64,000 bases of DNA, taken from contig JAXDDX010000006.1 of NCBI GenBank assembly GCA_034670405.1, forward strand, positions 9,995,501 to 10,059,500. Direction: 5' to 3'. The notes beneath the pieces are model-generated. The model was not told the DNA's origin, ran no database searches, and saw nothing but the letters and a program-made list of their open reading frames with translations. This stretch comes from Hoplostethus atlanticus. Lineage: Eukaryota > Chordata > Actinopteri > Trachichthyiformes > Trachichthyidae. Position 1 is the stretch's first letter, and each line of letters begins with the position of its first letter. The translations under genes and the position numbers were made by a program. Positions 3,778-61,661 of the stretch are shown here, one piece after another.

Positions 3778-4547
3778 CAGTGAGGAACACCACAGTGAGG
3801 AACACCACAGTGAGGAACACCACAGTGAAGAACACCACAGTGAGGAACACCACAGTGAGGAACACCACAGTAAAGAACACCACAGTGAGGAACACCACAG
3901 TGAAGAACACCACAGTGAGGAACACCACAGTGAGGAACACCACAGTGAAGAACACCACAGTGAAGAACACTACAGTGAGGAACACCACAGTGAGGAACAC
4001 CACAGTGAAGAACACCACAGTGAAGAACACTACAGTGAGGAACACCACAGTGAGGAACACCACAGTGAAGAACACCACAGTGAAGAACACTACAGTGAGG
4101 AACACCACAGTGAGGAACACCACAGTGAAGAACACCACAGTAAAGAACACCACAGTGAGGAACACCACAGTGAGGAACACCACAGTGAAGAACACCACAG
4201 TGAGGAACACTACAGTGAGGAACACTACAGTGAGGAACACCACAGTGAAGAACACCACAGTGAGGAACACCACAGTGAGGAACACCACAGTGAGGAACAC
4301 CACAGTGAAGAACACCACAGTGAGGAACACTACAGTGAAGAACACCACAGTGAGGAACACCACAGTGAGGAACACCACAGTGAAGAACACCACAGTGAAG
4401 AACACCACAGTGAGGAACACCACAGTGAGGAACACCACAGTGAAGAACACCACAGTGAGGAACACTACAGTGAAGAACACCACAGTGAAGAACACCACAG
4501 TGAGGAACACCACAGTGAAGAACACCACAGTGAGGAACACTACAGTA
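3778..4547. repeat. 15-bp minisatellite, about 51 copies
   Basis: Tandem units of AACACCACAGTGAGG with only a few variable positions: GAGG/GAAG, CAC/TAC, and GTGA/GTAA in two units. The unit length is a multiple of three and has no stop in several frames. Long spurious frames therefore run through it on both strands: EEHHS and RNTTV repeats on plus, FLTVV and VPHCG repeats on minus. None has splice or start context suggesting a gene. The array begins about 40 bp after the end of the dispersed element at 3147-3740. Confidence 0.95.
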
Positions 4548-8469: not shown

Positions 8470-8566
8470 GAAGGACTGCAACATCAAATCCTGTGTTTTG
8501 GTGAAATGCTTCCGTTCTGAGCCGAGCCCTTCATCCACCTAAACACTTCCACCTCCACCTTCCTAC

Positions 8567-11500
8567 CTGCAATGCGGATGACGGCCCTCTCCGCCGGGTC
8601 CAGCACGTCTCCGGAGGCCGACTTGGAGCGTTTGATGCGATGGTGTTTGGGCAGGTTCCAGGGCAGCGTGTCTCCCAGGCATGGAGGGCAGCTCATCGAA
8701 CTCAGGTCGCTGGAGCTCTCCTCCGACGCAGCCCGGACCAGAGGCCTCCTCTTGGGCTTCAGCTCCTCCATAGTCTGGATGGACCCAGGGAACAGGAAAG
8801 GACAAACATGGAGTTATAGAACCACTCAACCACAGGACGGGAAAGGAAGGACAGGACAGGACAGGACAGGACAGGACAGGACAAAACAGAACAGGACAGG
8901 ACAGGACAGGACAGGACAGGACAGGACAGGACAAAACAGGACAGGACAGGACAGGACAGGACAGGACAGGACAGGACAGGACAGGACAGGAAAAAACAGG
9001 ACAGGACAGGACAGGACAGGACAGGAAAGAACAGGACAGGACAGGACAGGACAGGACAGGACAGGACAGGAAAGAACAGGACAGGACAGGACAGGACAGG
9101 AAAGAACAGGACAGGACAGGACAGGACAGGACAGGACAGGGCAGGACAGGACAGGAAAGAACAGGACAGGACAGGGCAGGACAGGACAGGACAGGACAGG
9201 AAAAAACAGGACAGGACAGGACAGGACAGGAAAGAACAGGACAGGACAGGACAGGACAGGACAGGAAAAAACAGGACAGGACAGGACAGGACAGGACAGG
9301 AAAAAACAGGACAGGACAGGACAGGTGTCTCTGCTACAGATGTAATGCTGCTGCCATATATTAGTAAGGCAGACAGATCAAATATAGGTATTTCATTTGG
9401 AAGAGTATCATTCTAAAACGCTATATTGTCCATTTGTATGAAAAATGATCGTCACTTTTTGGCTGAAAAATCTTCTCTGCAGCAGCTGATTTTCTCACCT
9501 TCACCAGACTATCTATATTTAGATGGCTGTGCAGTAGCCGGGGTAGGGAGGGTAAAAGCCCGGCGCTGCAGCACAGTGCTCAAGCCGTTTGAAGGATTAT
9601 TATTTTTCTCCAAAAGCCTGGAGCGCCGTCTCTTTCAGAGAGCTGCCGTGAGGTTCAGGACAGGTGTTGCTGATGTTCTACGTCACCGTGCCACTGTGTA
9701 CGCTCCGAGCCTCCCTTTTCAGCTGAGTCACCATCCAGCACACAGGCTGCTCTCCACAGGGGCGCTGGCTGCACCGCTACAGCCTCTCTGATTGGCCGAG
9801 AGCAGACAGGACCGTGGACCCAGGGGTATCGATGCGTACAGTGCATTAGCTAGAGTTCCCACGCTGGCTATGATATCACCAGAGCTTATATCTGGCTCTT
9901 TCGCTTGTTACTGCCACGACTGCAGTGCTGCATCGCGTGGTGCAATGAGATACAAGCTACTGTAATGTAAATAGTGGCCTGCTTCTTTTTTTTTATTAAA
10001 GCTTTATTGAATTGGGCGGATCAATTCAGGACAAATTCATGTTTAGAGTGACAGCGTCTATTCACTCAAGTGTCTCCAACTTTTCTTCAGTTATCAGTTT
10101 GATATCAGTTCATCATCCCATGCATTACCACACTAACAATATGACCCATCTCAATGAAAACACCGATCACCACTCCACTGGACTCTAGGATTCAGTGCTC
10201 CTTATACTATAAACAAAGGGAATAATACAACGCTAAATGAATATTTTTTTAGAGCTACATCACTGTAAGGGAATCACATTCAAAATAAAAAGGCCAAGCC
10301 ACAGTGGGAGCAGAGAGAGACGACAACATTCCCTCAAGGTACAGTTGTTACTGAACGTTATCACTGGCCTATGACTCCTTGTTGTCCCTTGTTCCTGTAG
10401 TCGGCGTTTTGTGAATCAATCCTGTACATGCACTGGTTATAGCAGTGATCAGCAGTTACATGCACCTACGGCGTCCAAGGCAACCACTGCCTTTGACAAA
10501 TCACCTCTGTCGTCACAGGTCTAAATCAGGCCCATTACTATTCAGAGTGGCATTGCTTTCTTGTATGGCCTGCATCCAAACAAGCTGAAAGCATCAGGGT
10601 AGGCTGTAGAGTTACCAAGCAACCCCGAGGAGCATTGGAGAGCATGCTGCTGAGACTCTCAGGACTTCAAACACATGGAGAAAAAAAAAAAAAAAAAAAA
10701 AGTAAGTAAGTAGTGTGCTGGTATGAATCACACAGACAGCTGAGAGATGGAGGCTGGTCTCTGGTGACAAGTGATGGACTTCCTTAGGACTGGATCTGTT
10801 GTTCCACAGCTGTTTTCAGATCAGCTGTCAAGACAAGTCGTTTTGGGTCTTTAAAACACACACATCCAAACAAAACATATTTTAAAGCTGTCATCAGCAG
10901 AAATCACCTCGGCCCCTTTAACCTCGAGCTAAGCTGATAGGTGCACCTGCTGTTTGACAGGTGCGTTCATAGTACATGATGAGTGTAATGTAAGGTGATA
11001 ATAATAACGCAATCATCCTCACTGCGCTGTCACGCCACATTATTTCTAACCCGCCGGTCTGAAGAGCAACAACATCCGCCTCGTTGATGCGGCAAAACTG
11101 ACACATAAAATAATTGTGCACCCCGGTTTTACTCACGTCAAAAAAAAAGGAAAATCCCGGGACTAACGTTTTTGAATCCCCGGTAAACAGTCGTAAAATC
11201 CCGTCTTCTGTCACCGACAATGTCCGCGGACTCGTCCCACTCAGATCCCGTTGAAACTTAGCGAGGCATCCGCCGCAGCGTCCCGCAGTACGTCGGGCTG
11301 ACCTGGACCGAGGCGGGCTCGAGCGCAAGCCGTGATGGGAGAGGAATCTGCTCTCTCTGCGACTGTCCGCACGCACACCTTCCCGTTACAATCCGGTGGT
11401 AAACGGCAGGCGGGCGGGCAGGCACGCATCGGGATGAAGATGAGAGGAGAGATCTGATTGCGAGGTTGCATGTGAAAGCTGAGCTCGGATCAGATTTGCT

Positions 11501-16800: not shown

Positions 16801-18863
16801 TATAATTTATATTATATTATACATACAATTTCCCTTTTTTACTATATTTTTATAAAGTGCTCTTATTGTAAATATTGTGTTGTTTTTTATATAGAGCTCT
16901 TACTGTGACATTGTAAATATTGTGTTGGTTTTTTTATTGTAAACAGTGTGAACCTGTTATTTGCCCTTTGCACATTTCTGCTGAGCATTGCCACTTTACA
17001 TTTCACTGCACACCTCGTGTGTGTATGTGACAAATAAACTTCTTGAATCTTGAATCTTGAATCACTGGATGGGAACTTGAAATGTGCGTGAACAGCGACC
17101 CCTGAAGTCTACAAGAGGCATTGCAAGCTGTTACAAAGAGAATTAGCGTTATGTTATTATGATATTAAAAGCAGATTTCATCCTCACGCTCAGAAGACAC
17201 CACCTATGGCTACCCAGGGGGAGGATAACATAACATCATCATCATCAGTGTCTACCTGTGATTGATTTGCTCACCTGACTTGGAGCTTTTGATTTGGAGT
17301 GCTTCACCATAACTGTTGGAAAGAAAAAAAACAAACAAATATTATTTCAGCAGCCAGGAGCCAACCGCCTCTTCTCCCAAATACAAAACGTGACTCAAAG
17401 GTATGATAAGCACAGAATGTTACATCATCAATACAATGATATGTAATCAATTTGACAGTAAGGTGAACAGTGCAGCAGGTGACAGCACGGGCGATTTTAG
17501 ACCCATTTTGGCGGGGCGGGGCCTTCAGCGCGCGCGCCTGTGTGCCAGTCTGAGAGGCAGACAGCAGCACTACACAACTGACCTCGGATCAGATCAGCTA
17601 ATCCCAGAGAGTAGGTGAGTGGGACAGAGGTAGTAAACTTGAGAAATGCACACTCAATAGTGTATTACTGTAATAGATATTAAAAGGCATGTTACTCCCC
17701 TCTGTTATAGTTAGCTAACATTAGCTAGCTAGCTATAACACACACTAGCTTTGTAACTTGCTAGGTATAATGTTAAAAAAAATTAAAAAATTGCAGCTTA
17801 AATGTCAGCTTCTCTCATGATAGCCAAAAAGTACATACAACAAAGATAGCCTACAAATAAACCTGTTGCTCCATAGATGGATAGAAGAAAGTACCTGATG
17901 AAAAGCAGCAGAACCACAGAACATGTACAATCAGGCAAGACAGATGAGAGAGGAAATACATGTTCTGGTAGCTGTTGGCCTGCTAGTTTTACTCTACTTC
18001 AGTAAATTCAGTAAATAAAATGTAATTCATTCATTTAAAAATTCGGCACACGCTTTACACCCAACAAAATCACCCTCGTCTGAAACCTCGTGCTAAAGTC
18101 GCCCCTGGGTGACAGGTGGGTCCTGAGTCACTGTGAGCCACATGCTGCGAGTATTGACATGTTACCATGACTCTGTAAAACCACTGGAGCAAGGAAGGAG
18201 TCGATGAACCATGACACATCACATCATGTCAAATTTAAAACATGTCATTAAGCTCACAGGTTGGACCGCGGTGCAGCAGTCGGTAAAATGTAGTTTTACG
18301 TACTTGAGACGGGAAAGTACGCCTACGAAGGTTTGGAGCAACGTGCTAAAAATATCAGTTTTATTGTATGAGTATGAAAGACGCATTGTTTCCATTCAGA
18401 TAGTTAAAAGTACATTTAAACAGCAATCAGACCAGCGGCCAACCACAAACTGTAGTCAGAGCCAGCAGGACTTGGCCGTTTCTGGGAGAATGTGGAAAAA
18501 GGCAGTCTTGGAAAGCAAACCCTAACAATTTACAATTACCGGACTTGGGGGGAGAAAAAAAAAATGCATTTCCACTCAACGTTCCTCCAAAAGTGAGAGC
18601 AACTTCAAGTTAAACCTTCACAGTTAGCTGCACCACAGTCCAGTTCTTAGCCGTCGTCACGGGCCTCCAGAGACCTACGGGGAGGGATCGAGGGCCCACC
18701 TACCTGCCAGGTACCGGTCCATGGAGGGTGAGGAGCTTTGGTTCTGAGCATAACAGCAGAAGAAGAAGGTCCAGACCAGGAGGGTGGCCAGGACCAGGAG
18801 TAAGACCCAGAGGAGCCGGGCCACAGCTGGGTTGGTGAGGGCCCAGGCTGTCAGGGTATCCAT
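8567..18863 (-). CDS. Plakin-family N-terminus (plectin/dystonin type), partial
   Basis: Four minus-strand exons join in phase: 18704-18863, 17275-17312, 13013-13174 and 8567-8774. They give 189 codons, all with GT-AG borders. Exon 1 starts at an ATG and encodes a hydrophobic anchor at about residues 17-39, with a VWTFFFCCYA end, as in the membrane-type N-terminus of dystonin isoforms. Exons 2-3 are very basic (KHSKSK, RKKKPKEK, RKRKRRPLK). Exon 4 carries SEESSSDLSS, then GDTLPWNLPKH and VLDPAERAVIRIA, the segment that precedes the actin-binding domain in plectin and dystonin. IRIA is nearer plectin and LPKH nearer dystonin. The last exon ends in phase 1, as expected before DERD, but no exon with VQKKTFTKW was found down to base 1. 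The gene therefore either continues beyond the window or encodes a short form. Likely role: a membrane-tethered cytolinker. Plakin membership is confident; the exact orthologue is not. Confidence 0.75.
8842..9324. repeat. (ACAGG)n pentanucleotide array, about 480 bp
   Basis: Nearly continuous AGGAC pentamers with scattered variants (AAAACAGG, AAAGAACAGG, GGGCAGG). It lies in the plakin intron. On the gene's sense strand it reads CCTGT repeats and ends about 70 nt before the acceptor of the exon at 8567-8774. The Gly-Gln-Asp-Arg-Thr frame through it is spurious. Confidence 0.95.
9325..13012. other. Plakin intron between exons 4 and 3
   Basis: Mostly unique non-coding sequence, with poly(A) at about 10680-10700, a GC-rich block at 11000-11530 and a G-run near 12331-12340. 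The GC-rich block has CpGs and overlapping short minus frames and could be a CpG island or alternative first-exon region; this is inference only. No further plakin exon was recognised. Confidence 0.5.
13838..13878. repeat. (ATT)n microsatellite
   Basis: About 12 ATT units with one interruption (atatatt). It lies inside the plakin intron. Confidence 0.9.
15660..15985 (-). mobile_element. Dispersed element, copy B (inverted relative to 3147-3740)
   Basis: The reverse complement aligns with copy A: tttgctgttctaaacacccg, then gttagcatgagcagcgatag, then agagcgccacctacag. The outer edge on the minus strand reads ggtggttctcagactg, the likely terminal sequence. Copy B lacks part of copy A's interior. 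No coding capacity is visible. Confidence 0.55.
16513..17065 (+). mobile_element. LINE (L2/CR1/Rex-like) 3' end fragment
   Basis: The plus frame encodes a C-terminal reverse-transcriptase-type tail: KDPHHPNNGLFQLLRSGKR, then RLRRSFFPQAI and RTVNS. This resembles the 'DPSHP..LF.LLPSGRRYR...FFPQAI' end of L2-like non-LTR retrotransposons. A CA run interrupts it at about 16747-16777. The tail ends tgacaaataaacttcttgaa followed by three TTGAATC units, the usual 3' terminus of such LINEs. It is 5'-truncated and dead. It lies in the plakin gene, antisense to it. Confidence 0.75.
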
Positions 18864-19120
18864 GCTGAAGCCGGGTGACCAGACTACTTGTCACCAGTAG
18901 AGCCTAACTATCTGTCAGCCTGCTTCCCTGGGTCGGGCTGCAGCAGAGCTCATGAACGGGTTCCTGTGGGCCGGTTCTGTCCTCTCAGGCCCGCCAGAGC
19001 CTGCAGCAGCAGCAGGAAGAAGCAGCAGCAGCAGCAGCAACGACAACGGCAACCACAGATGGGTACCAGCTGTTCCAGAAGGAGCCTTCAGACCTCAGCC
19101 CACGTCAGCCTGGTGAGTAC

Positions 19121-19121
19121 G

Positions 19122-19153
<32 letters not shown>
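19121..19153. repeat. (GT)n microsatellite
   Basis: About 16 GT units in the spacer upstream of the plakin first exon. Confidence 0.9.
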
Positions 19154-19155
<2 letters not shown>

Positions 19156-19291
19156 GTTGCAATTTACTGAGTCCTGGAAAAGTGTGTGAGTGTGTGTGAG
19201 CCTAAGGAAAACAGTTCGGAGGAGTGGCTAGGAGCTGCAGCGCTTGAAATAACCGGCCGGCCACTCCCAAGATGAAGGAATCCTCATACAA

Positions 19292-19331
19292 TCACACACA
19301 CACACACGCACACACACACACACACACACAC
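19292..19331. repeat. (AC)n microsatellite
   Basis: About 19 AC units with one G interruption, in the same spacer. Confidence 0.9.
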
Positions 19332-20226
19332 TGCTGTAACACAAGAGGTACGGGGTGACTCAGAAATGCACCTGGGGTACTTTCCCCTCCCTACTTGAAC
19401 ACTTGCAAGCAGTAATTTGGGCATCAACTAACAGACAACCGCCAATCATTTTAAAGGTACGCTGGTATACGAGCTGCCTGTCATTCCTTTGAAGATGAAG
19501 GATCAAGGAGATCAAGGATCTCATGTTGACCTGGTTAAACCAGCAAACACATTTAGCTGTAGACAAAAAGACAGTAGACACATTTCAGACAGACAAAGGT
19601 GAGAAAGAGGAGATTGAAAGAGAGCTTGCTTTATTGGACCCAACTGGTATGAAGTACATCCTGATCCTGGTTGCATGTTATCATGTAACACAAGGGGAGT
19701 ATTGACATTCATGCTCTGTGGTGCAAGTCAGTATTTAGGAAGCAGGTGTGGTCGACAAAGCATTGACTCCTAAAACAGCAGACACACTTGAATGGACGTG
19801 GGTATATAAATAAATAATGGCCCAAGTGTGTGACTGATGCTGGTCCTGTCTCTTCCCAGTCACTGTCCCAATGCTTTCCATCATTTTTGGTTTCCATACC
19901 AACACCAGTATGACGTTTCCAAATTCTCCCCAAAACGACCTGCCTCTCCAAACCACGTCGAGGCGGGCTGCAGCCCAGGAGAACCAAATTAAGTTTGTTG
20001 GGTTTTATTTATCTACTTGCATCTTCATGCCTTCGCTTTAACGACAGATAATACAAAGAATAAACTCCAAGCTTGAGCTCAGTAGTGCAAACTGCAGCGT
20101 GGTAGAACTGGCAGGAATGTTCTGCAGGGTGGAAACATAAAAAATACAACAGTGCCATCTAGTGATGAGTTGTGAAATAGCAATAGCAAAGAAGTTAAAA
20201 TCGCATACAGGATGATATAAAGATGC

Positions 20227-20232
20227 TTTATT
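20227..20232 (-). terminator. Candidate polyadenylation signal of eif3e
   Basis: AATAAA on the minus strand (tttatt on plus), about 345 nt downstream of the eif3e stop codon. This is a plausible 3'-UTR length. No transcript evidence. Confidence 0.4.
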
Positions 20233-20575
20233 TTACCCTTTATGTGACATTTGTGATTAAAGGTCAGGACTGGGTCAGTCACCAGGAACTCAGAACTAAA
20301 ACAATGTGTTAAATGATGTCAAAACTGTAATACCAGACATCAATGTCCACTTAATGTAAAAATAAAAGTCCTACTGAATCTGCAGAAAACGTCACCCATG
20401 TACATGAGTAACAGCAACCTCATCAAAATCAACAAACCGAGCTGTTTCTTACTGGTAGGATTGTGTTTCTCAGACGGTAAAGATAAGATAGATAAATAAA
20501 TAAATCCAATATAAAGCCGTAATAATCTCCCGATAATATCCCGCCATCTTCATCCTCTTCTTCCTGATTCAGAGT

Positions 20576-23500
20576 TTAGGAGAAGCCATTGTCCTGAGCT
20601 GCCCAGTTTGGTGTCTGAGGGGAATAGAAAAAAAAAAAGCACCTGTTAGATCGTCTGGGCTCAAAATACACTACATGGCCAAAAGTACTGACAGGTGTAT
20701 AAAACCAAGCACACAGCCATGCAATCTCCATAGGACGGGCCGTACTGAAGAGCTCTGTGACTTTCCACGTGGCACTGTCATTTCCAACAGTTCGTCAAAT
20801 TCCTTGGTTTCTTCGATCGGTGTGGAAGAACTTGACTGGCCTGCACAGAGCCCCCGACCTCAACCCCATCCAACACCCTTTGGGATGAACTGGAGCGCTG
20901 ACTGCGAGCCAGGCCTCATCGCCCAACATCAGTACCCGACCCCACTAAAGCTCTTGTGGCTGAAAGGAGGCAAATCCCTGCAGCAATGTTCCAACATCGA
21001 GTGGAAAGACCTCCCAGAGACGAGTGGAGGCCGTTGGACCAACTCCACAATAATGCCCATGATTTTGGAATGAGACGTTGGACGAGCGGGTGTCCACATA
21101 CCTTTGGCCATGTAGTGAACATTATAAAGCAACAAATGAAATTAGATATCCACCAGTTAACAATAAATAAATAAATAAATAAATAAATAAAAACAAATTC
21201 AAAAATGGTACTTCATGGAGGACAGTAGGTAACGTAAGTCCTCTGCAGACAAAACACCTCAACAGACTACATGCTGTATTTCAGGGACGTTGAATGAGTC
21301 GACTTCAGGTGATGGGTTTTCCTCTGAACGGCATGTTGTGTTTTGGAAATTAACTCGAAATTAAATTAAAGTTGTCCACAGTGAAATTCATAATGGAATT
21401 ATTCATTGCAATCAGACATGCAAACACATCAGGGGTAGAAAGGTGACGAAAACCCAAACATGCATTATAGGGGAGAGGAAATCTTCACATTCATGCTTGA
21501 AAGTATTTCTAATCCAAGTATACTTTACATTTAGCATACACTACAATAAAACAAATCAATCAGTAGTCACAAGACGGGGGTGGGGGGGGGTTTCACATGT
21601 CCACCAGAGGGCAGCATCACTAAGGATAGTGGTTAAACACCTATGTAAACATGATGGGTGACGTGACATACCAGTTTTAACAAAAAGACCTTTTGATATT
21701 TGTATAAATTGATGCAATGCCAGAAAAATGCCTAGACTCTTTGATGAATTTGCACTGAAAACGAATCATCAACTAAAACCATCTTGGTCAACGAAGACCC
21801 TGCCGATTCACCTAATTCACTATTAGGTACAACCTTAAACTGGTAGTTATGGCTGCCAGCCGACCGTCTATCAGCCGATCATGACAGGCTTGATGAAGAT
21901 GATGGTTCTGATTCTGATGAGATGACGATGCTGCACTCCATCAGGTGAACGACGTTTTGGCTCTGAGCCTTCATCAGACCATCATCTTTTTCGACTCAAT
22001 CGGTTGAATGGTAACTAGGCAGATAACGTTATGGCATTTCCTCACAAGACCCTCTCAAACAGCAGATATTGTAGAAAGGTGATATGTTTGCATCCCTGTG
22101 GAGTACACGGGCGTCGGCGTACCTCGTTCCTGTTGCTGTGGGCCAGCTTCTTCTCAATGTTCATCGCCAACATCTGGCTGCGGAAGGACAGGCTCTTGGT
22201 CTTCTCGATCACCTGCTGGTATGGCGACACTGCGTTGTTGCCCATTACCACGTGACCCTGAGAGACAACGTCAAAGATTTGTGAAAACTGACTTTGAAGT
22301 ACCACAACAAAACCCGTTACATGGCGTTTAAGAAGCTTCACAACGATAGGACCCGCTAAAAACAATACACAAGGATCGCTAAGAAAATAACATTTCTAAG
22401 ATTCCTGAAAAACATTTTGGAGGTGATTTTCATCTGCCGACGGGAAAACAAACCAATTAAATAACATTACTACCATCCTGTAGTAGTCAAAGTGAAAGCA
22501 GCTCGGCTGAGAGATTTGAAGCTCATCCCGCTGGAGGTGGATCTCAGCGAATGCAGAGTCTCACCAGTTTAGAGTCGATCTTGGCGTCAAGTCTGGCGTT
22601 ACGGATGAGGTTGACGATCCACCTCTCCGCCTCTCAGGGCGTCATGTTGAGCTTGTCTGCCAGCATGCTGAGAGTAGAAAGGGAAGGAGGGGGAGGTGGT
22701 GGTGTGACTTCAGCTGAGTAAATAAAAGAGGAATTCATCACTTTCATTCACCCTCTTGAGGCAACTTTCACAGAGGCAGTACCTGATGCTGATACACTGG
22801 TGAATACGACAAAAGGTCTCGAAGATGAAGAGACGGGCGTTCTCAATGAAGTCCTCAAGACAGGCAACCAGAAAGAAGTCATTCACAAGAACCTGGAGGG
22901 GGAAAGAAAACTCAATGGTTATATTCACCAAGCATTCACACAGGGTATGGAGGAAATCAAGGAAATGCCAACAATGTTTTCCCACAGTTCTGGTTCATTA
23001 TTTTAAAACACTTTGTACTTTTTAACTAGCGTTTCTGTTACGAATGCTTTATGAAAGTTTTTGCTTTCATTTTGATTTGCTTTTATTTGGATTGTTTGAT
23101 CTTCAGCTTGCTTTTATTTATTTTAACTCTTTTATGCTACTGTTCTTTTATCTGTGGAGCACCTGCGTATAAAAACATGAAGTTATTACTATACGTTTTT
23201 GATACAGCCACTTCAATAATAATAATAATAATAAAATCAGAGTTGAGTGTGTGGCCACGCTGTAAAATTGAATGAATCAGAACGGCTTTATTGGCACGAC
23301 GAGTCTACTTGTGTTGCCAAAGCACTCATGGATATTAATACTTGGGCTTGGGTGTTTTCCCTCGCCTGTCTGGCTGCATGGTTTTCAGTCCAGCCTCACG
23401 TTAGAGGTCAAGGTCAACACTATCCAACCTCACAATCTACAGTGATCACCTCCATGCAGCCTTGTGTTCGTTTCCTAATGGGGGTTTTGTCATCCAGGTT

Positions 23501-26500
23501 GACGATTTACAAAAATACAAGATATGGTCACTAATAAAAACAGCTACAGCACGTTCAATGTACACATGTAGTGATATTTATATTCCCTATAGTATGTTCT
23601 GCACCATCTCTGTGCTGTTGTCTTGCACCATGTGTGTCAATAAGTACTGTAATACTAACAGATGTGAACATATGTCACAAATGTATCCTGTACATTTATT
23701 GGACTTTATGGGACTTGGTGATTCATCACATTCTGCTGATGTTAAAGAAGAACATGGGATCATCAGACTACCCGACACGACGCCACGGTAGCTATCACAA
23801 CACACAAGCTCAATTGTGGGAGATTATGGATGATGTGTGTGACAGCGTTTTCCACACAAACATCAAATAGGGTGTTTGGCCACCTCAAATCTCCAGAACA
23901 GCTTAAATCCGTGAATAAATCAGTGTCTGGAATTTCAAAACGCGACGAGAAGCTACTATTGTATAAGAAATCCAACCATTCAGTGCTTTCCAGTGGTAAA
24001 CACGGGGGGGGGGCGCCATCGTTAAAATCCCCCATAAATACGCCATAAATACCCAATTAGTTTCATATCTTGTGATCAAGACAACACAGGCACACTGCTA
24101 ATATTTACTATGCTTTTTTAACAGTTTTCCTCATAAATTAAGGATTTTTATTCCAAGAAACACTTCCAAACGGGAAATAATGTGATAAAGGTTATCTTTA
24201 AATGTTTTTATGTTTATTTCAATTAGAGTTATGTTGATCTCTAGGGGGAAAATGAACAAAAAACCCTGTAAAAAAAGCACCCCTGACCATTAAGAGCCAA
24301 TAGGGCCCTTGACTATGGAAGGACTTAATGAACTTTTCATGCTCTCATTATTTTGCCCACTGAGACCTGAGAAAAGCATCATTTAAACAAGAAGGGTTAA
24401 AAACCAATTGATGAGAGTGCTTCGAGTATGCACTAAGTGGCCCCAGAGCACCAACTACAAAACTGCAGTCAAGGGTTTCTAAAGAGAAGGCAACCGAGCC
24501 CCAAATCTGACAGCTGTTCCGCTTTGAAAATCAAACTGAATAAAAGTAAGAGCCAGCAAATCAGGGCAGACATGGATTTGCTGAGGCTGAATAGCTGCTA
24601 AGTTAAATGCCTAGGACTCAGGAGATCAGAGCACCATAGCTAAGGGAAGCTTCATATTACCCCTCAGTCCCAGGAGACTGCTAACCTTTATGGGGTGATT
24701 TAGGCCTATGCGCCATGACAAACACACACTGTCAGGCAGGCACACTGAAGTAGAAAACCTCTGGAAGTTCTTCTTACCGATTCACACTCCCTCAGTTTCT
24801 TTTGGGCGCTGTCAAAGTCAAAGTTCACATAGAGACATTCCACAAACTCTGTGATTGGGTCCTTGTATGTGTAGGACTCCTAGGGAAGAGAGAGAACAGC
24901 CATTATTCAGGGGTTGACTAATTCTTTAAGTCATATAAGGTGAAGGTTATTTTGCTAACATTTAGCTGGCTTACCTGTTGAATGACTTTCACCAAGTCCT
25001 TGAGCACTTGCCTCCGTTTGCGCACATCTTTGTTGGTGATGACTGCAGTGGTAATGTAGCGCAGAATGTGTGGGCACATTGTCTGAATGGCATTCAGGTA
25101 CCTGGAAAAAACACAAAAGGCAGCATACAGTAGCATGATCACTAGGTTGTGCTGAAAATACAGAAAATACAGTTACAATACTGTACAATGCTGTTCAGGA
25201 ATTTGACAATTTGCCACAAATTCTAAATAAGATACTTTGAGGAGAAAAATAAAAACAAAATCAAACTAACAATACAGCAGGGTGGCCTTGTGGTTACACA
25301 GACAGAGTCTAAACTAAAAGTCACAGGTCTGATCCTCCACACAGCCAGTGTGTCCTTGAGCAAGACACTGAACACCTGCTCACTGTAAGAGGCTCTGGAT
25401 GAGAGAATCTTCTACATAATAAAATCCAATAAAATGTGCATTGAAAACACAGAGACTAGAATCTAAGTCACTCACTGAGGCTGGTAGAGGAAGAGGTCGA
25501 TTATATTGTCCCTGCCTTTGGGATGGTTGAAGAACACGAAGAGGGACCAGTGGATGAGCCAGGTCCTCTGCTGGAGAGACTGGAGAGGGGAGCTCACGGA
25601 CTGAGAGGGGGGAAGCACAGAAAGGGTAAACGTTATGAAACGGAGAATTACAAAGACAAATGTTCAAGAAGTGCTTTCATGCAAAATCATAGACATGTTC
25701 GAGGAGTAGGTTCATCCAGAACTGGTGCTCTTTGGCGATCATACTTAGAATTTAATTGTGAAACAAGGAGAACAAGGCATTGGTTTCATTTATTGAGGCA
25801 AACACACATTTCTCCTTAATTGTTTTTTTCCCCTCCTTGCTGTTGGTATTGACCTTCCCTCAAATGAGTTTTAATCTCCTTGTCATGTGATTTCCTACCT
25901 CCAACTAAAATGAATGTTAAAGCATATTTCCTGGTGACTACGTATATTAACTGTACCAGAAAACAAATCAAATCACATTTTATTTGTATAGCCCTTAATC
26001 ACCATTACAGTCTGAAAGGGCTTCACAGTGCCCAACATGTAAAACAATATATGGTTAGTACACGACATCCCCCAGCCTTGGATCCTCAGAGGACAAGGAA
26101 CTCCCAAAAAACTTTTAGGGAAAAATTGGAAGAAACCTCAGGAGGGGGCTACTCAGAGAGGGATCCCCCTACCAGGACGGTTGGGCGTGCAATAGATGCC
26201 GAGTTTGGACAACCAGCGTATACACTATCCATAAAGGTTTACTGTGGGTTTCAATACCATCTTGTTATGTCCTGTTGGATCCACCTTCTCATTTTTCTAT
26301 ACATCCCTACTCTACTACCTGATGAAGCTAGCCAAATGTTGATTACATCTATCAAGACAGCTAACAAAACAACAAATACAAGCTTATTGGGTTTTCTAAG
26401 TATTTATCAGGAGAGTCTCTTACATTGTTGTCAATCGTCTCCCTTAGTCGCGTGAGGTCCTCCATAGCTGCCTCCCAGTTCTGCATCAGGATCTCAGAGG

Positions 26501-28722
26501 CCAGCTTCCCCCACAAAGAGCTCAAGGCATTCCTGTCGGTTGAGGGAACCTGAGACAAGACCAACAAACTGAGTCTATACTGATCAAAAGACAATGAGTA
26601 AAAGTGAAAATAAAAAGAATGGGCTATTCAATCCAATGTGGCTTGTGTAGATCAAATGCGAGCGGTGGTTATTCTTACCAGCACGCGGAAGAAGTAGAGG
26701 TACTCTGCAGCCCCGGAGTAGTTACCACACTCATACTGGAACTTGGCATACCTGTACAGAGTGTCCAGGTACTCTTGGCGAAACTGAGAAACGAGGACAC
26801 AAGGAACTTTATTAACCAAGAAAAACATACAGCAAGGGTAGAAAATGAACAGCAACCAGATAGATGCTGGTAAATTTGGCTGGGAGGTTTTCCTATTCTA
26901 CTGGCAATTTGGCTGGTAAAGGGTTTGTTATTAAAGGCTAGGTTAGATATAAAGGGCTATAATGCAAGTGCACTACTCCACCTTTTTTACAAACTGCCAG
27001 CTCCTTTTTTACATGAGAGTCAATGGGAAGCAGCTGCAAGGCTGTTTGAAAGTGGCTGCTTTGGAAAGGCGCTGCGCCTGGCATCTTTTTTCGGCAGAGC
27101 ACAGCACATTCTCAAGTTGAAAACACATGATGTCCCTTTTTTGTAAACTGACTAATCACAAGGAAAAAGTGGGGTTTCACTGTACAAAGTACTGGTAGAA
27201 GAGTTGGTAGTAGTTATTACTACATTTACTATACTATATTTATTATAAAGAGGAATAAACTAGAACAGTACCTGTTACTGTTTGCTTATCATTTTGGAAA
27301 CAAAATGCACATCTCATAACTCGCTCTCTCAAGTGGAATAGTGTGCACATACTGTAATATTGCAACCTTACATTGTGTTTCTCCGACAGGTAGTCAAAGA
27401 GCATCCTCCCATCTCTGAGGAGAAACAAAACAAATGGATCAACTGATGTAAAAGCAGTCAGATGAGCTTTTTACACTCTAACACCTACTTTCACAACTGT
27501 CACTGAATTCTGAATGTCAGTGCTGTATGCACTGCACTTGAGAAGATGCATTTCTGACCTCGTGGACTGCATCTGCCGGGTGGTCTCTGGGTCTTCAAAC
27601 ATCTTAACAATCGGCTCTGTCTCTGACTGTAGCTGCTTCAGTTGGGCCACCACAGTTGTCCTCTTCTCCCTCAAAGCTGAAAGAGGAAATGTTCTCCCAT
27701 TAATACACTGCTGTTACATTAGTGGCAGTAAAGTCTATGTGAAGGGGGAAACACCTTATCCCAATGGTTAACAACAGGAAATAATCTGGCAGCGTGGCAC
27801 GATACATTTAGTGACATTTTTAAAGTAGAACCTTCATACTTACTAAGGCAGGTGGAAAATCAAAAGCGGCTAACACCAAATGCTGATGAATTGTCCATCA
27901 ACCTTTGTCTGGCAGGAAACAAGCCACTGTCCAGATGGAAGCCCTACTCTGTTTAGGCTGATAAAATAGCTCAAGTGGCTGGTTAATGTTGGGATTTCAC
28001 AGGCACTGTGGCTACATGATGGAAAGGCTAGTGACTGTTCTCCACGTCTATCCCCAATAATTTGACTGGATAGTGTAAGGATTATTTGATCTTGTAACTA
28101 ATAAGTGTACTGGTTATGTCATATATGTGGAATACAAACAAATTGTTATCGGGTGCTTTCTTACTGTGAGGGATTTCCTTGTCTGGGTACAGGTTTTTGT
28201 ACACATCCATGGCGAAATCCACCATGTTGGTTTCGCTGAGGAGATCCAACTTCCCCTGAAGGAGTTCCTTTTCATTGTAGATCTGTTAGAGTTAAAGAAG
28301 AACTTAGGATTTAGATGTTTAGTTGCCTTTTGTACATAGACTACATCTGAGCCAGTTAAGAGGATAACGTTGGACGACTAAATTAACTAGGAAAATAGCC
28401 CTGAAAATACACCAAATTATCAGGAATCTGTCAGTCATAATTATAATTAAGATACACCATAATGTATAGATTGTTTACACGGTCAGCAGCAGCTAATTAC
28501 TAGCAGGTTAGCTAACGTTACTGCTAGCTAGCTATCCCGGCCATGGCGGATCGAGGTGTTCTCAGGTATAAAAGTCCAGTGATAAATAGCTACATTATAT
28601 TTTGTCGTTACACAATAGTAAAAACGTTGTACCTCTTTCACAGACAGAAACTCCAAGAGAGGAAAAACCAAATGCCGGTCCAGAAAATGCGCTATTCTAG
28701 TTGTCAAATCGTAGTCCGCCAT
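20576..28722 (-). CDS. eif3e: Eukaryotic translation initiation factor 3 subunit E
   Basis: eIF3e is a core subunit of the cytoplasmic eIF3 complex that brings mRNA to the 43S ribosome; it has a C-terminal PCI/winged-helix region. Thirteen minus-strand exons, all GT-AG and in phase: 28633-28722, 28165-28282, 27559-27676, 27372-27414, 26679-26783, 26424-26549, 25476-25600, 24975-25101, 24778-24879, 22783-22892, 22565-22667, 22123-22257 and 20576-20614. They total 1341 nt, 446 codons plus stop, against about 445 in human. The protein starts [20 protein letters not shown] and ends [10 protein letters not shown]. Family landmarks include [55 protein letters not shown] and [20 protein letters not shown]. 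The one defect is an in-frame TGA at codon 366 (22634-22636), in MTP*EAERW where the family has two Glu. This is a sequence error, a null allele or an early pseudogene; everything else is intact. Intron 12 holds a Tc1 remnant. Confidence 0.95.
20669..21118 (+). mobile_element. Decayed Tc1/mariner transposon, internally deleted
   Basis: About 450 bp bounded by inverted ends CACTACATGGCCAAAAGTA (20669-20687) and, in reverse complement, CACTACATGGCCAAAGGTA (21099-21117). The interior keeps a degraded Tc1 transposase segment: gacctcaaccccatccaaca gives DLNPIQ, and a one-base shift then gives LWDELER, the conserved DLNPIEHLWDELE motif around the last catalytic region. Frameshifts and the small size make it non-functional. 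It sits in intron 12 of eif3e, antisense to the gene. Confidence 0.8.
22634..22636 (-). other. eif3e: In-frame TGA inside eif3e exon 11
   Basis: Exon 11 reads ATG ACG CCC TGA GAG GCG GAG AGG on the minus strand. The family sequence is MTPEEAER, so TGA stands where the first Glu codon belongs. The frame is correct on both sides. The same 15 bases could arise from ACG CCT GAG GAG GCG by gaining one C and losing one G, which suggests paired indels or sequencing slips rather than one point mutation. As written it removes the last 81 residues, including the end of the PCI/winged-helix region. Confidence 0.9.
25283..25420 (+). mobile_element. tRNA-derived SINE
   Basis: It starts gggtggccttgtggttacac and includes a B-box-like 'aggtctgatcctc'. 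It continues gtccttgagcaagacactga and ends ctctggatgagag. This order (tRNA-like head, then an L2-type tail with 'cttgagcaaggcac' and 'gctctggataagag') is typical of teleost SINEs. It lies in eif3e intron 7, antisense to the gene. Confidence 0.65.
25960..26235 (+). mobile_element. Teleost dispersed repeat in eif3e intron 6
   Basis: Carries the ordered words attttatttgtatagccctt, aagggcttcacagtgccc, cctcagaggacaaggaactc, gaagaaacctcaggaggggg and ccaggacgg. I recall this order from an abundant fish interspersed repeat of uncertain class. A 191-codon plus frame overlapping it is spurious. Confidence 0.5.
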
Positions 28723-39269: not shown

Positions 39270-40031
39270 TCAACTGAGCACCTCTAAATCTTCATCGGCC
39301 ACTGACACGCGCGAGGAGGACTCCGCTCTCAGATTGATTGAGCCATATAACTTTGCTGCGTGTTTGGAGTAGGCAAAGGCTCTCCTCCTGATCATCTCCC
39401 CTTTCCACATGGAGATCATGAGCAGGGTGGAGAGCAACACCCCCCCGAGGGTGAGGAGACACAGCCCCGCTATAACGCACAGGTCCAAATGGGCCCCCAG
39501 CCTCGCTTTCTCCCGCTCCAGCCTCTCCATCTCCCGGGCCGAGACGCTGTCCGGGTCCACTTTGACGTCCCTCGGGACCGTGTAGGATATGGCAACCAAA
39601 GAAATGCCAGTCACCAGGCAAGTGACGGCGATTATGAAGCCGTAGTCCACCGACTTCCCCGGCGCGTCGGCGGTGAGGTCGTCGTCGGACAGCATGTACA
39701 GTCCCGGGATGTCCTCCTCCTCGTACAGCTCGCTGGAGGAGCTGTGACTCAAGCTCCAGTTGTCGCTCCTGGCTGACCGGTGCGGACTAGTCTGAGTTAA
39801 ATGCACGTCGTCTTCGTGTTTGCGGGTGAAAGACGTTTCCGTTTCTTCCCCCGGTCCCCAGGCTCGCCGGGTCTCTGTCCGCGGTGCTGAATCCTCGCTC
39901 GCACAGCAAAGTGACCTTTCGCCGGAATAACCAATCTCGTTGGTACTTTGGTTATTTGAAAACAGGGAGGTGTTATTCGGGTCGGGTCGGTTGCCCAACT
40001 GATCAAAGTAAAACAGTTCAAGATCAGCCAT
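39270..40031 (-). CDS. tmem74: Transmembrane protein 74
   Basis: A two-pass membrane protein of 253 aa. The human protein is linked to lysosomes/autophagosomes and promotes autophagy (known of the family). The chosen start is MADLELFYFDQLGN at 40031. A longer frame reaches 40265, but an acceptor (gtttctctgacag) ends at 40081 and falls inside it, so the upstream codons are probably intron. Residues 1-125 are acidic, Ser-rich and poorly conserved, with SELYEEEDIPG. The core is well conserved: KSVDYGFI, membrane segment 1 at about 131-153, VPRDVKVDPDSVSAREMERL, ARLGAHLDLCVIAGLCLLTL, membrane segment 2 at about 184-208, then MWKGEM and KLYGSINLR. Human TMEM74 is longer (about 305 aa) because of its N-terminal region. 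The position between eif3e and trhr supports orthology to TMEM74 rather than TMEM74B. Confidence 0.93.
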   Translation of the reverse strand: MADLELFYFDQLGNRPDPNNTSLFSNNQSTNEIGYSGERSLCCASEDSAPRTETRRAWGPGEETETSFTRKHEDDVHLTQTSPHRSARSDNWSLSHSSSSELYEEEDIPGLYMLSDDDLTADAPGKSVDYGFIIAVTCLVTGISLVAISYTVPRDVKVDPDSVSAREMERLEREKARLGAHLDLCVIAGLCLLTLGGVLLSTLLMISMWKGEMIRRRAFAYSKHAAKLYGSINLRAESSSRVSVADEDLEVLS

Positions 40032-40458
40032 TTGGACATGGGCTGGGTTTCCCCCTTTTACCGAGCCCACGCGCCCGTCTCTGTCAGAGAAACACACCAA
40101 ATCAGAGAAAACAACCAATGTTACTGACGCTTCAACTTCCCGACAGCCTGCGGTATGCAATGGCAACTTTAATGGTTTTAACCTGAAAGGTGCTTGCCAT
40201 CTTTGACCACATTTGACAAACCTACGCGTCCGTCTCTTGGGGTTTAAAGTAGAGCTGCTATTCATTTAACTCCCGTGATATTTACGACACAGGAAACATC
40301 AAGACAAGTAAATCTTCCGACTGCTCAGTTGCTTCCCTAAAGCTTTCAGAAATGCACTTTATCCGTTTAAAGTGGTCGCTCGACAGGCTAACAAATCTAA
40401 TTACACTGAATATGTTTCGGTCATTGTCATTAAAGGAGAAAGGAGGATCGTTGCATAC

Positions 40459-43143: not shown

Positions 43144-43601
43144 TCTTTGACTGGACTCAGCGGTGGTGGTGGATCTTTGACTGGACTCAGCGGTGGTGGT
43201 GGATCTTTGACTGGACTCAGTGGTGGTGGTGGTGGATCTTTGACTGGACTCAGTGGTGGTGGTGGGATCTTTGACTGGACTCAGCGGTGGTGGTGGTGGA
43301 TCTTTGACTGGACTCAGTGGTGGTGGTGGATCTTTGACTGGACTCAGTGGTGGTGGTGATGGATCTTTGACTGGACTCAGCTGGTGGTGGTGGTGGATCT
43401 TTGACTGGACTCAGCAGTGGTGGTGGTGGATCTTTGACTGGACTCAGCAGTGGTGGTGGTGGATCTTTGACTGGACTCAGCTGGTGGTGGTGGTGGATCT
43501 TTGACTGGACTCAGCAGCGGTGGTGGTGGATCTTTGACTGGACTCAGTGGTGGTGGTGGTGGATCTTTGACTGGACTCAGCGGCGGTGGTGGTGGTGGAT
43601 G
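43144..43601. repeat. 30-33-bp minisatellite, 14 copies
   Basis: Each unit reads tctttgactggactcag followed by a variable number of GGT triplets and GGA. Length differences between units come from the GGT count. Frames reading GSLTGLSGGG or WIFDWTQ repeats are by-products. Confidence 0.95.
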
Positions 43602-48441: not shown

Positions 48442-50293
48442 ATGGAAAACTTTACTACAGCTCAAGACGTGAACAGCACCTTGGGGACTTGGGTGGACCA
48501 CAGCGTCCAATACAAAGTGATAAGTAGCCTATTGGTTTTCGTGATATGTGCCTTAGGACTCGTTGGCAACGTCATGGTCATTTTGGTGGTGCTCACTACC
48601 AAACACATGAGGACACCGACCAATTGCTACCTAGTGAGTCTGGCTGTGGCGGATCTGATGGTGCTGACAGCGGCTGGCTTGCCGAGCATCACGGACAGTA
48701 TCTTTGGCTCCTGGGTGTTTGGCCACTACGGGTGCCTTTGCATCACATACTTTCAGTACCTCGGAATCAACGCCTCGTCTTGCTCCATAACCGCGTTCAC
48801 CATAGAAAGATACATCGCCATTTGCCATCCTATAAAAGCCCAGTTTCTGTGCACGCTCTCCAGGGCCAAGAAAATCATTTTCTTCGTTTGGGTTTTCACC
48901 TCGCTTTACTGCGTAATGTGGTTCTACCTGTCCGACGTCCAAGAGCTGCTGTACGACAACATCACCATCATCACCTGCGGCTATAAAGTGCCAAGGCGCT
49001 TTTATTTGCCGATTTACTTTTTTGATTTCGGTATCTTTTTTGTTTTGCCACTCGTGCTCTCCGCAATCCTGTACGGGCTGATCGCGAGGATTCTCTTCCT
49101 GAACCCGCTGCCCTCTGACGCGAAGGAGAAGAAGAAAAACGGACACGGCAACGCCACGACCAATAAGACAAGTTGTAAAAACTCTCGCCACTGCAGCTCC
49201 ACCGCGACCTCCCGCAGACAGGTGGGTTGTGGGTGTCTGAGACTGGCACCTCCACAGTCAGCTCTTAGGGCAATTACTCTGAGGGTGATACCAATCTAAA
49301 TTTATTTGGTCTCATATTCTGTCTTAAAATGTCTTTAAAAAATGTCTTAAAATATTTTTCTTAAAACAAGCAAAAGAAAAATCATCATTGGCATGGAAAC
49401 AAGTGACACCATCTTTATGAACTGACAGATTTTTTCATTTGTTTGAAAAAAAAACTCGTAATATTTTAAGACTTAATACTACATTAATAGACCTGTTAAG
49501 AAGTACATTTCACCCTTGGTTATTACCAGCACATATTGTTAAACTCTTGAGTACCCCTTCATTTTGCAGTTCCTCTTTTGGGCATTTGTCAGGGAAAAAC
49601 ATGACAAGATTACAAATGACCAACACTGCCTCACTGTCCTTCTGAATTACTAGCCTATATGAAATCAAAATCATAGAGAGTAAGAACTGAAATCCTCATA
49701 TCATGATTCCCCACTATGCCAGGTTTTGCCCTTTATCTCCAATTATTGTTATTATTTATTTGTTCAATTCTGTTTCTGCTCAGATTGTTGATCTGGCTGG
49801 TTTTATTGCTTCCATGAGAGCTTTTCTGCAGTGATATGTATTCCCATATTTCCCCTTGGGCCTGCAGGTGACCAAGATGCTGGCGGTGGTGGTGATCCTA
49901 TTTGCCATGCTTTGGATGCCCTACCGCACCTTAGTGGTGGTCAACTCCTGCCGGGACCAGGCCTACCTGGACACCTGGTTCCTGCTTTTCTGCCGGAGCT
50001 GCATCTACCTCAACAGCGCCATCAACCCGGTCATCTACAACGCCATGTCTCAGAAGTTTCGCGCCGCTTTCCGCAAGATCTGCCGCTGCGGGCGGAAGAG
50101 CTCGGACAAGCCCGCCGCCTACAGCGTGGCGCTCACCTACAGCGCGGTCAAGGACACGTCTGTGGTGGAGAGCACTGACCACTTCACCACAGAACTGGAG
50201 GAGCTCACTGTCACAGATGAGCTGCTGCCGGATAAGGAAATGATGTTCCAAGATGGCCGCGTCTATGGGAAGGTGACCTTCAGCAACGACTGA
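48442..50293 (+). CDS. trhr: Thyrotropin-releasing hormone receptor
   Basis: A Gq/11-coupled class A GPCR for TRH at the plasma membrane, acting in the pituitary and brain. Two coding exons, 48442-49221 and 49868-50293, join CAG|GTG with consensus borders and encode 401 aa (human about 398). The intron lies just before membrane segment 6 (SRRQ|VTKML), its usual place in this gene. The start has a strong context (accaagATGG). Visible features: N-glycosylation sites N3-F-T and N11-S-T; D71 in segment 2 ([10 protein letters not shown]); C98 and C179 for the extracellular disulfide; Y106 and N110, the TRH-binding positions of the mammalian receptor; ERY at 122-124; Y279 and R303, equivalent to human Y282 and R306; NPVIY at 313-317; and C332/C334 as possible palmitoylation sites. 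The third intracellular loop and the tail vary most. Teleosts keep several trhr paralogues; this is the TRHR1 type by sequence and synteny, but a versus b is not resolved. Confidence 0.97.
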
Positions 50294-55138: not shown

Positions 55139-55325
55139 CTCTTCTTCTTCTTCTTCTTCTTCTTCTTCTTCTTCTTCTTCTTCTTCTTCTTCTTCTTCTT
55201 CTTCTTCTTCTTCTTCTTCTTCTTCTTCTTCTTCTTCTTCTTCTTCTTCTTCTTCTTCTTCTTCTTCTTCTTCTTCTTCTTCTTCTTCTTCTTCTTCTTC
55301 TTCTTCTTCTTCTTCTTCTTCTTCA
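55139..55325. repeat. (CTT)n trinucleotide repeat, about 62 units
   Basis: Perfect CTT/TTC run. It is flanked by related 'cctcctccactggggtc' sub-repeats at 55085-55138. Minus-strand Glu and Lys homopolymer frames are artefacts. Confidence 0.95.
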
Positions 55326-59551: not shown

Positions 59552-61661
59552 CTAATTATTGTTGATCTTTAGAACAAAGAGGTTGCTGGAGGTCAGGACG
59601 AACAGTCTCTCGTTGGTCGCCCGGAAGCCCAGGATTGGTTCGTTGGAGTCCAGGCTGGCCACCTGTTGCTTGGCAACCTGTCCCACCTGACGGCCCTGCT
59701 TCCTGTTGAAGAGCACGGTGTCAACAGGCGACGGCTGTCTGTAGATGAACGCCCGGCGGAGACACTCTCCCAGGGTCGCGTAGGAAAAGTTTGGAGCGCA
59801 GGTCGCAAACTTCTTATCACGTTTGGATGCCTGGACATAGCCTAGCCAAGACAGGCGGGTTAAGAGAAGAAGAAAAAAGAGAAATGAGTTGAGGTTTCAC
59901 AATTACCAACACAAATCAGAGGCCTGTGGTGAGGCCTTACGGCCGTGCCATGCTGGCTACCTTTTCATTTTCTGGTCCACATTAAAGCTGCATTAAGCAA
60001 CTTGGAACATTGATGACTCCAAATCATGTAACACACCATGCTCATGTTTACTAACCCGAACAGTCTGATCACTGAGTACCAAAGGATATGAAACGGATGA
60101 GAGAGGCAAAAGATCCAACGCTGGTGAGTGCAGCGTACTCTGGACGGACTGCTTGCTTGCTGCTGTTTATAAGAGGTTTTGTATTTCTCTCATACGTTTC
60201 AATTTGTCACTTCCTGTGAGCAGAGAAGATTTCCTGCCAGGCATTTCAATCAGGGGGGATAGGACACTTTTCTCTATTGCAGCCCCACTTTGTGAGTTAG
60301 GCTGATGAGTATATTTTTACCAAAAACCTTTGCCTGCTTAGCAACCGCCTCTCTGCTGCCCAAAATTGAATAGATGAATGCTGGTGGCGTGCTCGCCTCA
60401 CAAAAGTCGGAATAAACTTTAAAAGTAGGCCTTGTAAATCTAAAGTCAGTCAAGAATCAGCCACTGCAATGACTATTTCACATTTACAGGTGTACCAGAG
60501 CAGATGCAGCTCACTCAGAAGGAGGCAAGAAGAAGAAGACAATATCATAGTGTCATAAAATAATTTCTACGGGAAGGAAAAAGGCCATATGCATGAAAAC
60601 AAACAGAAAAAGGTCTAGGACTCCCAGACAGAACTGTACAGCATAGCCAGCAGTGGGCTCACATAGCCAAACTAATAACTGATAGGACATATTGATCAAG
60701 TTTTTTTAATTGGCAAAACAAAATATGATTGACTGTAAATTGAGAAACAGATTTCAACTGCAAATTTTCAACAATCTTGGGATAATTAACAGACTGACTG
60801 CTATGGGCGTCACAGCCGAGCGGTTATCTGAAATGAATCCCAACAGCCAATCAGAATAGAGTACTCTCCCGGCCCCTGTAGGGTTCACCAATGTTCAAGC
60901 ATGACTGTATTTCCCTTCACGCCACAGTCGACTCAACAAGGTAATTTTCGTAAATATCACCAGAGATCCCATCTATGGTCTCATATTGGATGATGTATTA
61001 ATTGGAGGGAGGCTCTAGAGATCGGCATGCTTTACACCTAAGCTCACATGCACAAGATCAATTATTATGAGACTGACTTGATTGCATCCATAGCAGAAGA
61101 AGGTTAGGCTGTAAATGTTTCAATGTTTTTTTATGCTGTGATTACTTTCCCTCTATAGGCTACAAACAATGTCAGCAATAACCCTCCTGTCATACACTGC
61201 AGCTGTATCACTCCCACGGGGTTTCTGTTGCCCCCACTTTAACGTGTCCATAATTCATCCAGTGCCAAGACTTGAGGCGTGACAGCTGGATGTAAACACA
61301 TTGAATAGTTCAGGGTATGTTGGGTGTCAAACACAACAGAATTCGCAGACCAAACCATTATAATGTGACTGATATGGCGATGCTCCACATATCTTAATGG
61401 TTCTTAATCTTAATCTTGATCGTGTTGAGTCATAGAGAGAGTAGCAAAATGGGAAAATGGACATTTACTGTATTTATGTAGTTATGGCGTTCAGCTCTTA
61501 CCAAGGGCGTTGAACGTGGCGATGTGCTCCCACATGTTGCTGGGCTGGTTGGGCCGCGGCTGCCACACCAGGGCGTCGACGTCGTGGCGGAGGCAGAGGC
61601 ACGGCATCTCAGACGGGTCCACGTCCACCGTGAACAGGTACTGGTGGCTCCCCAGATTCAC
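59552..61661 (-). CDS. nudcd1: NudC domain-containing protein 1, C-terminal exons (partial)
   Basis: NUDCD1 (CML66) is a cytosolic/nuclear protein with a central CS (p23-like) domain, regarded as a client-binding HSP90 co-factor of the NudC type. Two minus-strand exons are present, 61502-61661 and 59552-59841. They splice CTT G|GC, making the Leu-Gly of [15 protein letters not shown], and end NNN-stop at 59552-59554. They encode the last 148 residues: [46 protein letters not shown], then [34 protein letters not shown] and [20 protein letters not shown]. These match the human C-terminus closely. The CS domain and upstream exons lie beyond 64 kb. The opposite orientation to trhr is as in human. 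Confidence 0.95.
59986..60343 (+). mobile_element. Dispersed repeat X, copy 2, in nudcd1 intron
   Basis: Second copy of the element at 50778-51105, same orientation, starting agctgcattaagcaac. It lacks the poly-G and has an extra segment around 60160-60230. It is antisense to nudcd1. Confidence 0.65.

Follow-up and report, generated by a model that had tools for sequence, protein, structure and literature searches.

An in-frame TGA was found at codon 366 (positions 22634..22636, minus strand) of the eif3e gene in the window, by which we mean the whole stretch of 64,000 nucleotides of Hoplostethus atlanticus DNA that was analyzed. The assembled sequence truly contains this stop codon, whereas the animal most likely does not. 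By judgement and not by computation, we put the probability at roughly 0.58 that eif3e is a normal functional gene and that the TGA arose as a local assembly or base-calling error. The gene is like those for vertebrate eIF3 subunit E (INT6) over nearly the whole protein, including the eIF3_N, PCI, and EIF3E_C domains, and differs from them by this one codon.

Gene model and position of the stop codon

When the human eIF3E sequence was used as a tblastn query against the window, matches spanning 28722 to 20582 were obtained on the minus strand. A splice model, for which AG acceptors and GT or GC donors were obligatory, placed the gene from the start codon to the final stop at 20576..28722 (minus strand), with 13 exons and 12 introns; its coding sequence, final stop included, is 1341 nt long. 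Exons 1 to 4 lie at 28722-28633, 28282-28165, 27676-27559, and 27414-27372; exons 5 to 8 at 26783-26679, 26549-26424, 25600-25476, and 25101-24975; and exons 9 and 10 at 24879-24778 and 22892-22783. Exon 11 (22565..22667, 103 nt) bears the in-frame stop, exon 12 (22123..22257) follows it in frame and is mostly unchanged relative to human, and exon 13 occupies 20614-20576. GT was the best donor in 12 of the 12 introns, all of which are GT-AG.

The identity of the gene was also supported by sequences in the PDB, independently of the human query. Residues 1-201, in a query with one surplus junction residue, matched four PDB eIF3e sequences with E values of 1.6e-121 or lower, and the part encoded by exons 10-12 matched five (E 4.2e-68 to 3e-13). 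The latter part also had two weak PDB matches to proteins other than eIF3e, namely a COP9 subunit (E 0.013) and DegP (E 0.32). Furthermore, eIF3_N, PCI, and EIF3E_C were all detected by Pfam in one protein when codon 366 was read as X. Since the joined exons can be aligned with human eIF3e over their full length and match the PDB sequences, eif3e in the window is a real gene rather than a chance frame.

Translation of the splice model contained two stops, one at codon 366 and the final one at codon 447. The TGA sits in exon 11 between a Pro codon and GAG, the reading frame is correct on both sides of it, and truncation there would remove 81 residues (366 to 446). The other 445 codons are open, and no second stop, frameshift, or damaged splice site was found in the coding frame or among the 24 sites checked; as assembled, the gene lacks an uninterrupted frame from start to final stop because of the TGA at codon 366. 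These results agree with the initial annotation, which had placed the TGA at 22634-22636 in a correct frame and had described an eif3e gene of 13 exons with 24 intact splice sites and a loss of 81 residues. It had also stated that the family has Glu at this place, which held for four of the five PDB eIF3e sequences; the fifth, 7ase, has Ala.

Conservation and the nature of the base change

The translation was compared with the human eIF3E sequence, residues 1-66 and 446 being left uncounted. Residues 67-365 were identical at 288 of 299 positions. After the stop, residues 367-427, encoded by the remainder of exon 11 together with the larger part of exon 12, showed no difference from human-type eIF3e (61 of 61 identical), and the same 61 identities were obtained against the PDB sequence 28zx. 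Over residues 367-445 the identity was 71/79, all 8 differences from human falling in residues 428-445. Because all 61 residues after the stop match human-type eIF3e, this copy was under selection until recently. With zero amino-acid changes relative to human in about 137 nonsynonymous sites 3' of the stop, the time without selection is roughly bounded at less than about 2 million years if a rate of 1e-8 per site per year is assumed, about 7 million at 3e-9, and about 22 million at 1e-9. No relatives of the exon 10-12 protein were found by tblastn among 48 genome-contig and 7 viral-contig pattern matches.

We then considered how the TGA could have been formed. A Glu codon cannot be converted into TGA by any single substitution, the single-step neighbours of TGA encoding Arg, Gly, Ser, Leu, Cys, Trp, or another stop. 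Hence, one ordinary point mutation would be insufficient if the ancestor had Glu, whereas one substitution would suffice if the lineage carried one of these neighbouring residues at codon 366. When 16 family-like codings of the three codons for Pro-Glu-Glu were compared with the observed bases, four were two edits away and none was closer. For one of these four, two adjacent substitutions are enough; the other three require an insertion paired with a deletion, or else a larger number of substitutions. The change had been explained initially as one gained C plus one lost G, and this is indeed among the four equally short paths, but it is not the sole one. The excess of GAG over GAA in the window eif3e (25 to 7) mildly favours the slip paths.

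A templated origin of the change from a quasi-palindrome was also considered. The TGA site has a 7-base inverted match less than 60 nt away, located at the exon 11 acceptor, and a 9-base one less than 400 nt away. Such matches are common at exon positions, being found at 88 of 1302 positions for 7 bases within 60 nt and at 41 of 1302 for 9 bases within 400 nt, and this origin was dropped.

Origin and consequence of the stop codon

We infer that the change is technical rather than in the animal. A run of roughly three exon 11 bases would have been miscalled with the frame left unchanged, possibly through two compensating one-base slips or through a bad local consensus. In support of an error, the gene is intact and conserved on either side of the TGA, and the change is compound and frame-preserving. 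Moreover, eIF3e is essential in mouse, no homozygotes being reported among 50 offspring of heterozygous crosses (PMC6070656), and zebrafish with reduced or disrupted Int6 are described as having developmental defects (PMC1978538); these requirements count toward an error. False premature stops are reported to occur in vertebrate assemblies (PMC9516821), and those cases resemble ours in that a premature stop lies in an otherwise intact gene. The candidates in that survey were filtered with reads, whereas the present case was judged from the assembled sequence. The survey as cited also places premature stops among the rarest kinds of false gene loss, and this rarity counts against an error.

Several features of the window likewise count against an error. 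Apart from the TGA, nothing in the window points to poor base quality: it contains no N, and 8 of 25 tandem-repeat rows are perfect, including 61.7 copies of TCT, the others being imperfect. Three neighbouring genes were found by tblastn: tmem74 (39273-40265, minus strand), trhr in two exons (48442-49224 and 49865-50284, plus strand), and an apparent last exon of nudcd1 (59561-59845, minus strand). Their aligned coding parts, 561 nt for tmem74, 783 and 420 nt for trhr, and 285 nt for the nudcd1 exon (2,049 nt in total), were free of stops and frameshifts; a second nudcd1 match extends into intron-like sequence and has one stop there. The perfect repeats, the absence of N, and the clean neighbouring genes together speak against an error, and two compensating errors a few bases apart are not typical of random error. 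The sequencing slips proposed in the initial annotation are still, by our judgement, the likeliest cause, but they are unproven, and three other paths are as short as the one with two slips. As an artefact, the TGA would matter for annotation only: eif3e would be split or cut short by gene predictors, and screens for gene loss would wrongly count an essential gene as lost.

If the TGA were real, nonsense-mediated decay of the transcript would be expected, since this usually acts on a stop that lies more than about 50-55 nt 5' of the last exon junction. The codon-366 TGA precedes the exon 11-12 junction by 69 nt and the last junction, that of exons 12-13, by 204 nt, and the 204 nt place it within the reach of this rule. 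From these distances, mRNA decay would be likelier than a shorter protein. The initial annotation gave the length of the loss correctly in proposing a null allele or a truncated protein, but the expected nonsense-mediated decay was absent from that reading. When residues 1-365 alone were searched against Pfam, eIF3_N and 52 of 84 PCI positions were kept and EIF3E_C was lost; an mRNA that escaped decay would thus yield a protein without the remaining PCI and EIF3E_C. C-terminal loss of eIF3e is shared with the truncated Int6 forms due to MMTV in introns 5, 9, and 12, as reported in PMC2206715. There, however, the truncation is due to virus insertion and chimeric mRNAs, whereas the window gene has a nonsense codon where decay is expected.

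A genuine recent nonsense allele on the sequenced haplotype, arising in a single complex event (for instance, a tandem substitution), is in our judgement possible but clearly less probable than an error. Its mRNA would be a target of decay and the allele would be null, persisting in heterozygotes or through a second eif3e gene. The distances of 69 and 204 nt, both beyond the usual limit, fit such an allele, as do the clean remainder of the window and the one coding among 16 that lies two adjacent substitutions away; a second copy is plausible from the gene names used in fish (see below). Against it, the protein is almost identical to that of human, indicating a copy under strong selection, and the short inverted matches, as candidate templates for the change, are nothing unusual. 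In addition, heterozygous mouse embryos and cells are described as impaired, translation speed in the cells being reduced to about half (PMC6070656). A real allele would mean that the species can live with one eif3e copy being null, in spite of the strong conservation of this eIF3 subunit, and would point to a second copy that works. We consider it quite improbable that the TGA is fixed in the species, with this copy newly null or regulated by decay and a second eif3e doing the essential work; if true, the gene for a duplicated core eIF3 subunit would have been caught at the very start of its loss. Similarly doubtful is the proposal, made in the initial annotation, that this eif3e is a duplicate from whole-genome duplication that is now decaying; the stop would be its first lesion. 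In its favour, emc2, which lies beside EIF3E in human, was not credibly matched in the window (E 0.24 at best), although tmem74, trhr, and part of nudcd1, which follow eif3e in the human gene order, did match. The missing emc2 fits differential loss between duplicated regions, and rearrangement fits too. However, neither the coding frame nor any of the 24 splice sites showed a further lesion, and the 61 unchanged residues of 61 limit the relaxed period to at most about 2 to 22 million years at the assumed rates. The teleost duplication is far older than this. The single lesion and the 61/61 residues as in human also speak against an unprocessed pseudogene, and the 12 introns rule out a processed one.

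The least credible alternative, to which we give hardly any weight, is that the TGA is real but bypassed by readthrough, selenocysteine, or splicing, so that a full-length or nearly full-length protein is made. The full conservation of the 61 residues beyond the stop would be consistent with this, the joint skip of exons 10 and 11 preserves the frame, and two AG sites within exon 11 would allow in-frame removal of 45 or 75 nt. However, skipping exon 11 alone (103 nt) destroys the frame, and twelve skips containing exon 11 keep the frame, the smallest of which (exons 10-11) costs 71 codons in the PCI region. The first cryptic AG is without a pyrimidine tract and the second has only a weak one, as read by eye and unscored. 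The PDB relatives have a sense codon at this place (Glu in 4/5, Ala in 1/5). As for selenocysteine, a selenoprotein gene carries a SECIS element in its 3' UTR, and none was present among the seven Rfam matches up to E 10 in 18500-22800, all of which were below the gathering score; no Rfam family reached the gathering score anywhere in the window.

The question of a second eif3e copy bears on the nonsense allele. Both names, eif3ea and eif3eb, are used in the literature, in several papers on fish and in some that are not. In zebrafish, eif3eb has been used as a reference gene for qPCR (PMC8001686), and in a sea bass study eif3ea and eif3e each had a probe of their own (PMC5323488). Since the copies are named and probed separately in fish, a second eif3e copy is plausible. 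Of the genes next to EIF3E in human, neither emc2 nor rspo2 was matched credibly in the window. The sea bass eif3ea primers given in PMC5323488 matched the window gene at 13/20 and 18/20 bases at the homologous places, the 13/20 being tied by an unrelated place. The forward primer for sea bass eif3e matched at 17/20 across the exon 12-13 boundary of the joined exons, and the reverse primer had no good match in the window gene. These primer matches hint at two fish eif3e genes, and they are too little to assign the window copy to either. A second exon 11 was not detected elsewhere in the window by tblastn, the only other match to that part being at chance level (E 3.0). Among the papers listed by a literature search, none was to the point on genomic stop codons as noted in NCBI style.

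Repeats and other observations in the window

Long tandem arrays free of N were observed at 3778-4546, 8832-9325, 43144-43595, and 55140-55324, with units of 15, 5, and 33 bases and the 61.7 perfect TCT copies. That the arrays are resolved without N suggests a long-read assembly. Near the 3' end, the best Rfam match was mir-466 (19124-19326); it was below the gathering score, overlies TG and CA repeats, and was rejected.

Within intron 12 of eif3e, a stretch at 20669-21117 has near-identical inverted ends (cactacatggccaaa...) and, as read by eye, is probably a small DNA transposon. An exon-like open frame (MEELKPKRRPLVRAASEESSSDLSSM...) at 8487-8813 on the minus strand adjoins the ACAGG array and had no Pfam match up to E 0.01. 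Finally, a short frame at 18640-18873 on the minus strand starts with MDTLTAWALTNPAVARLLWVLLLVLATLLVWTFFFCC and, by eye, resembles the first exon of a small membrane protein.
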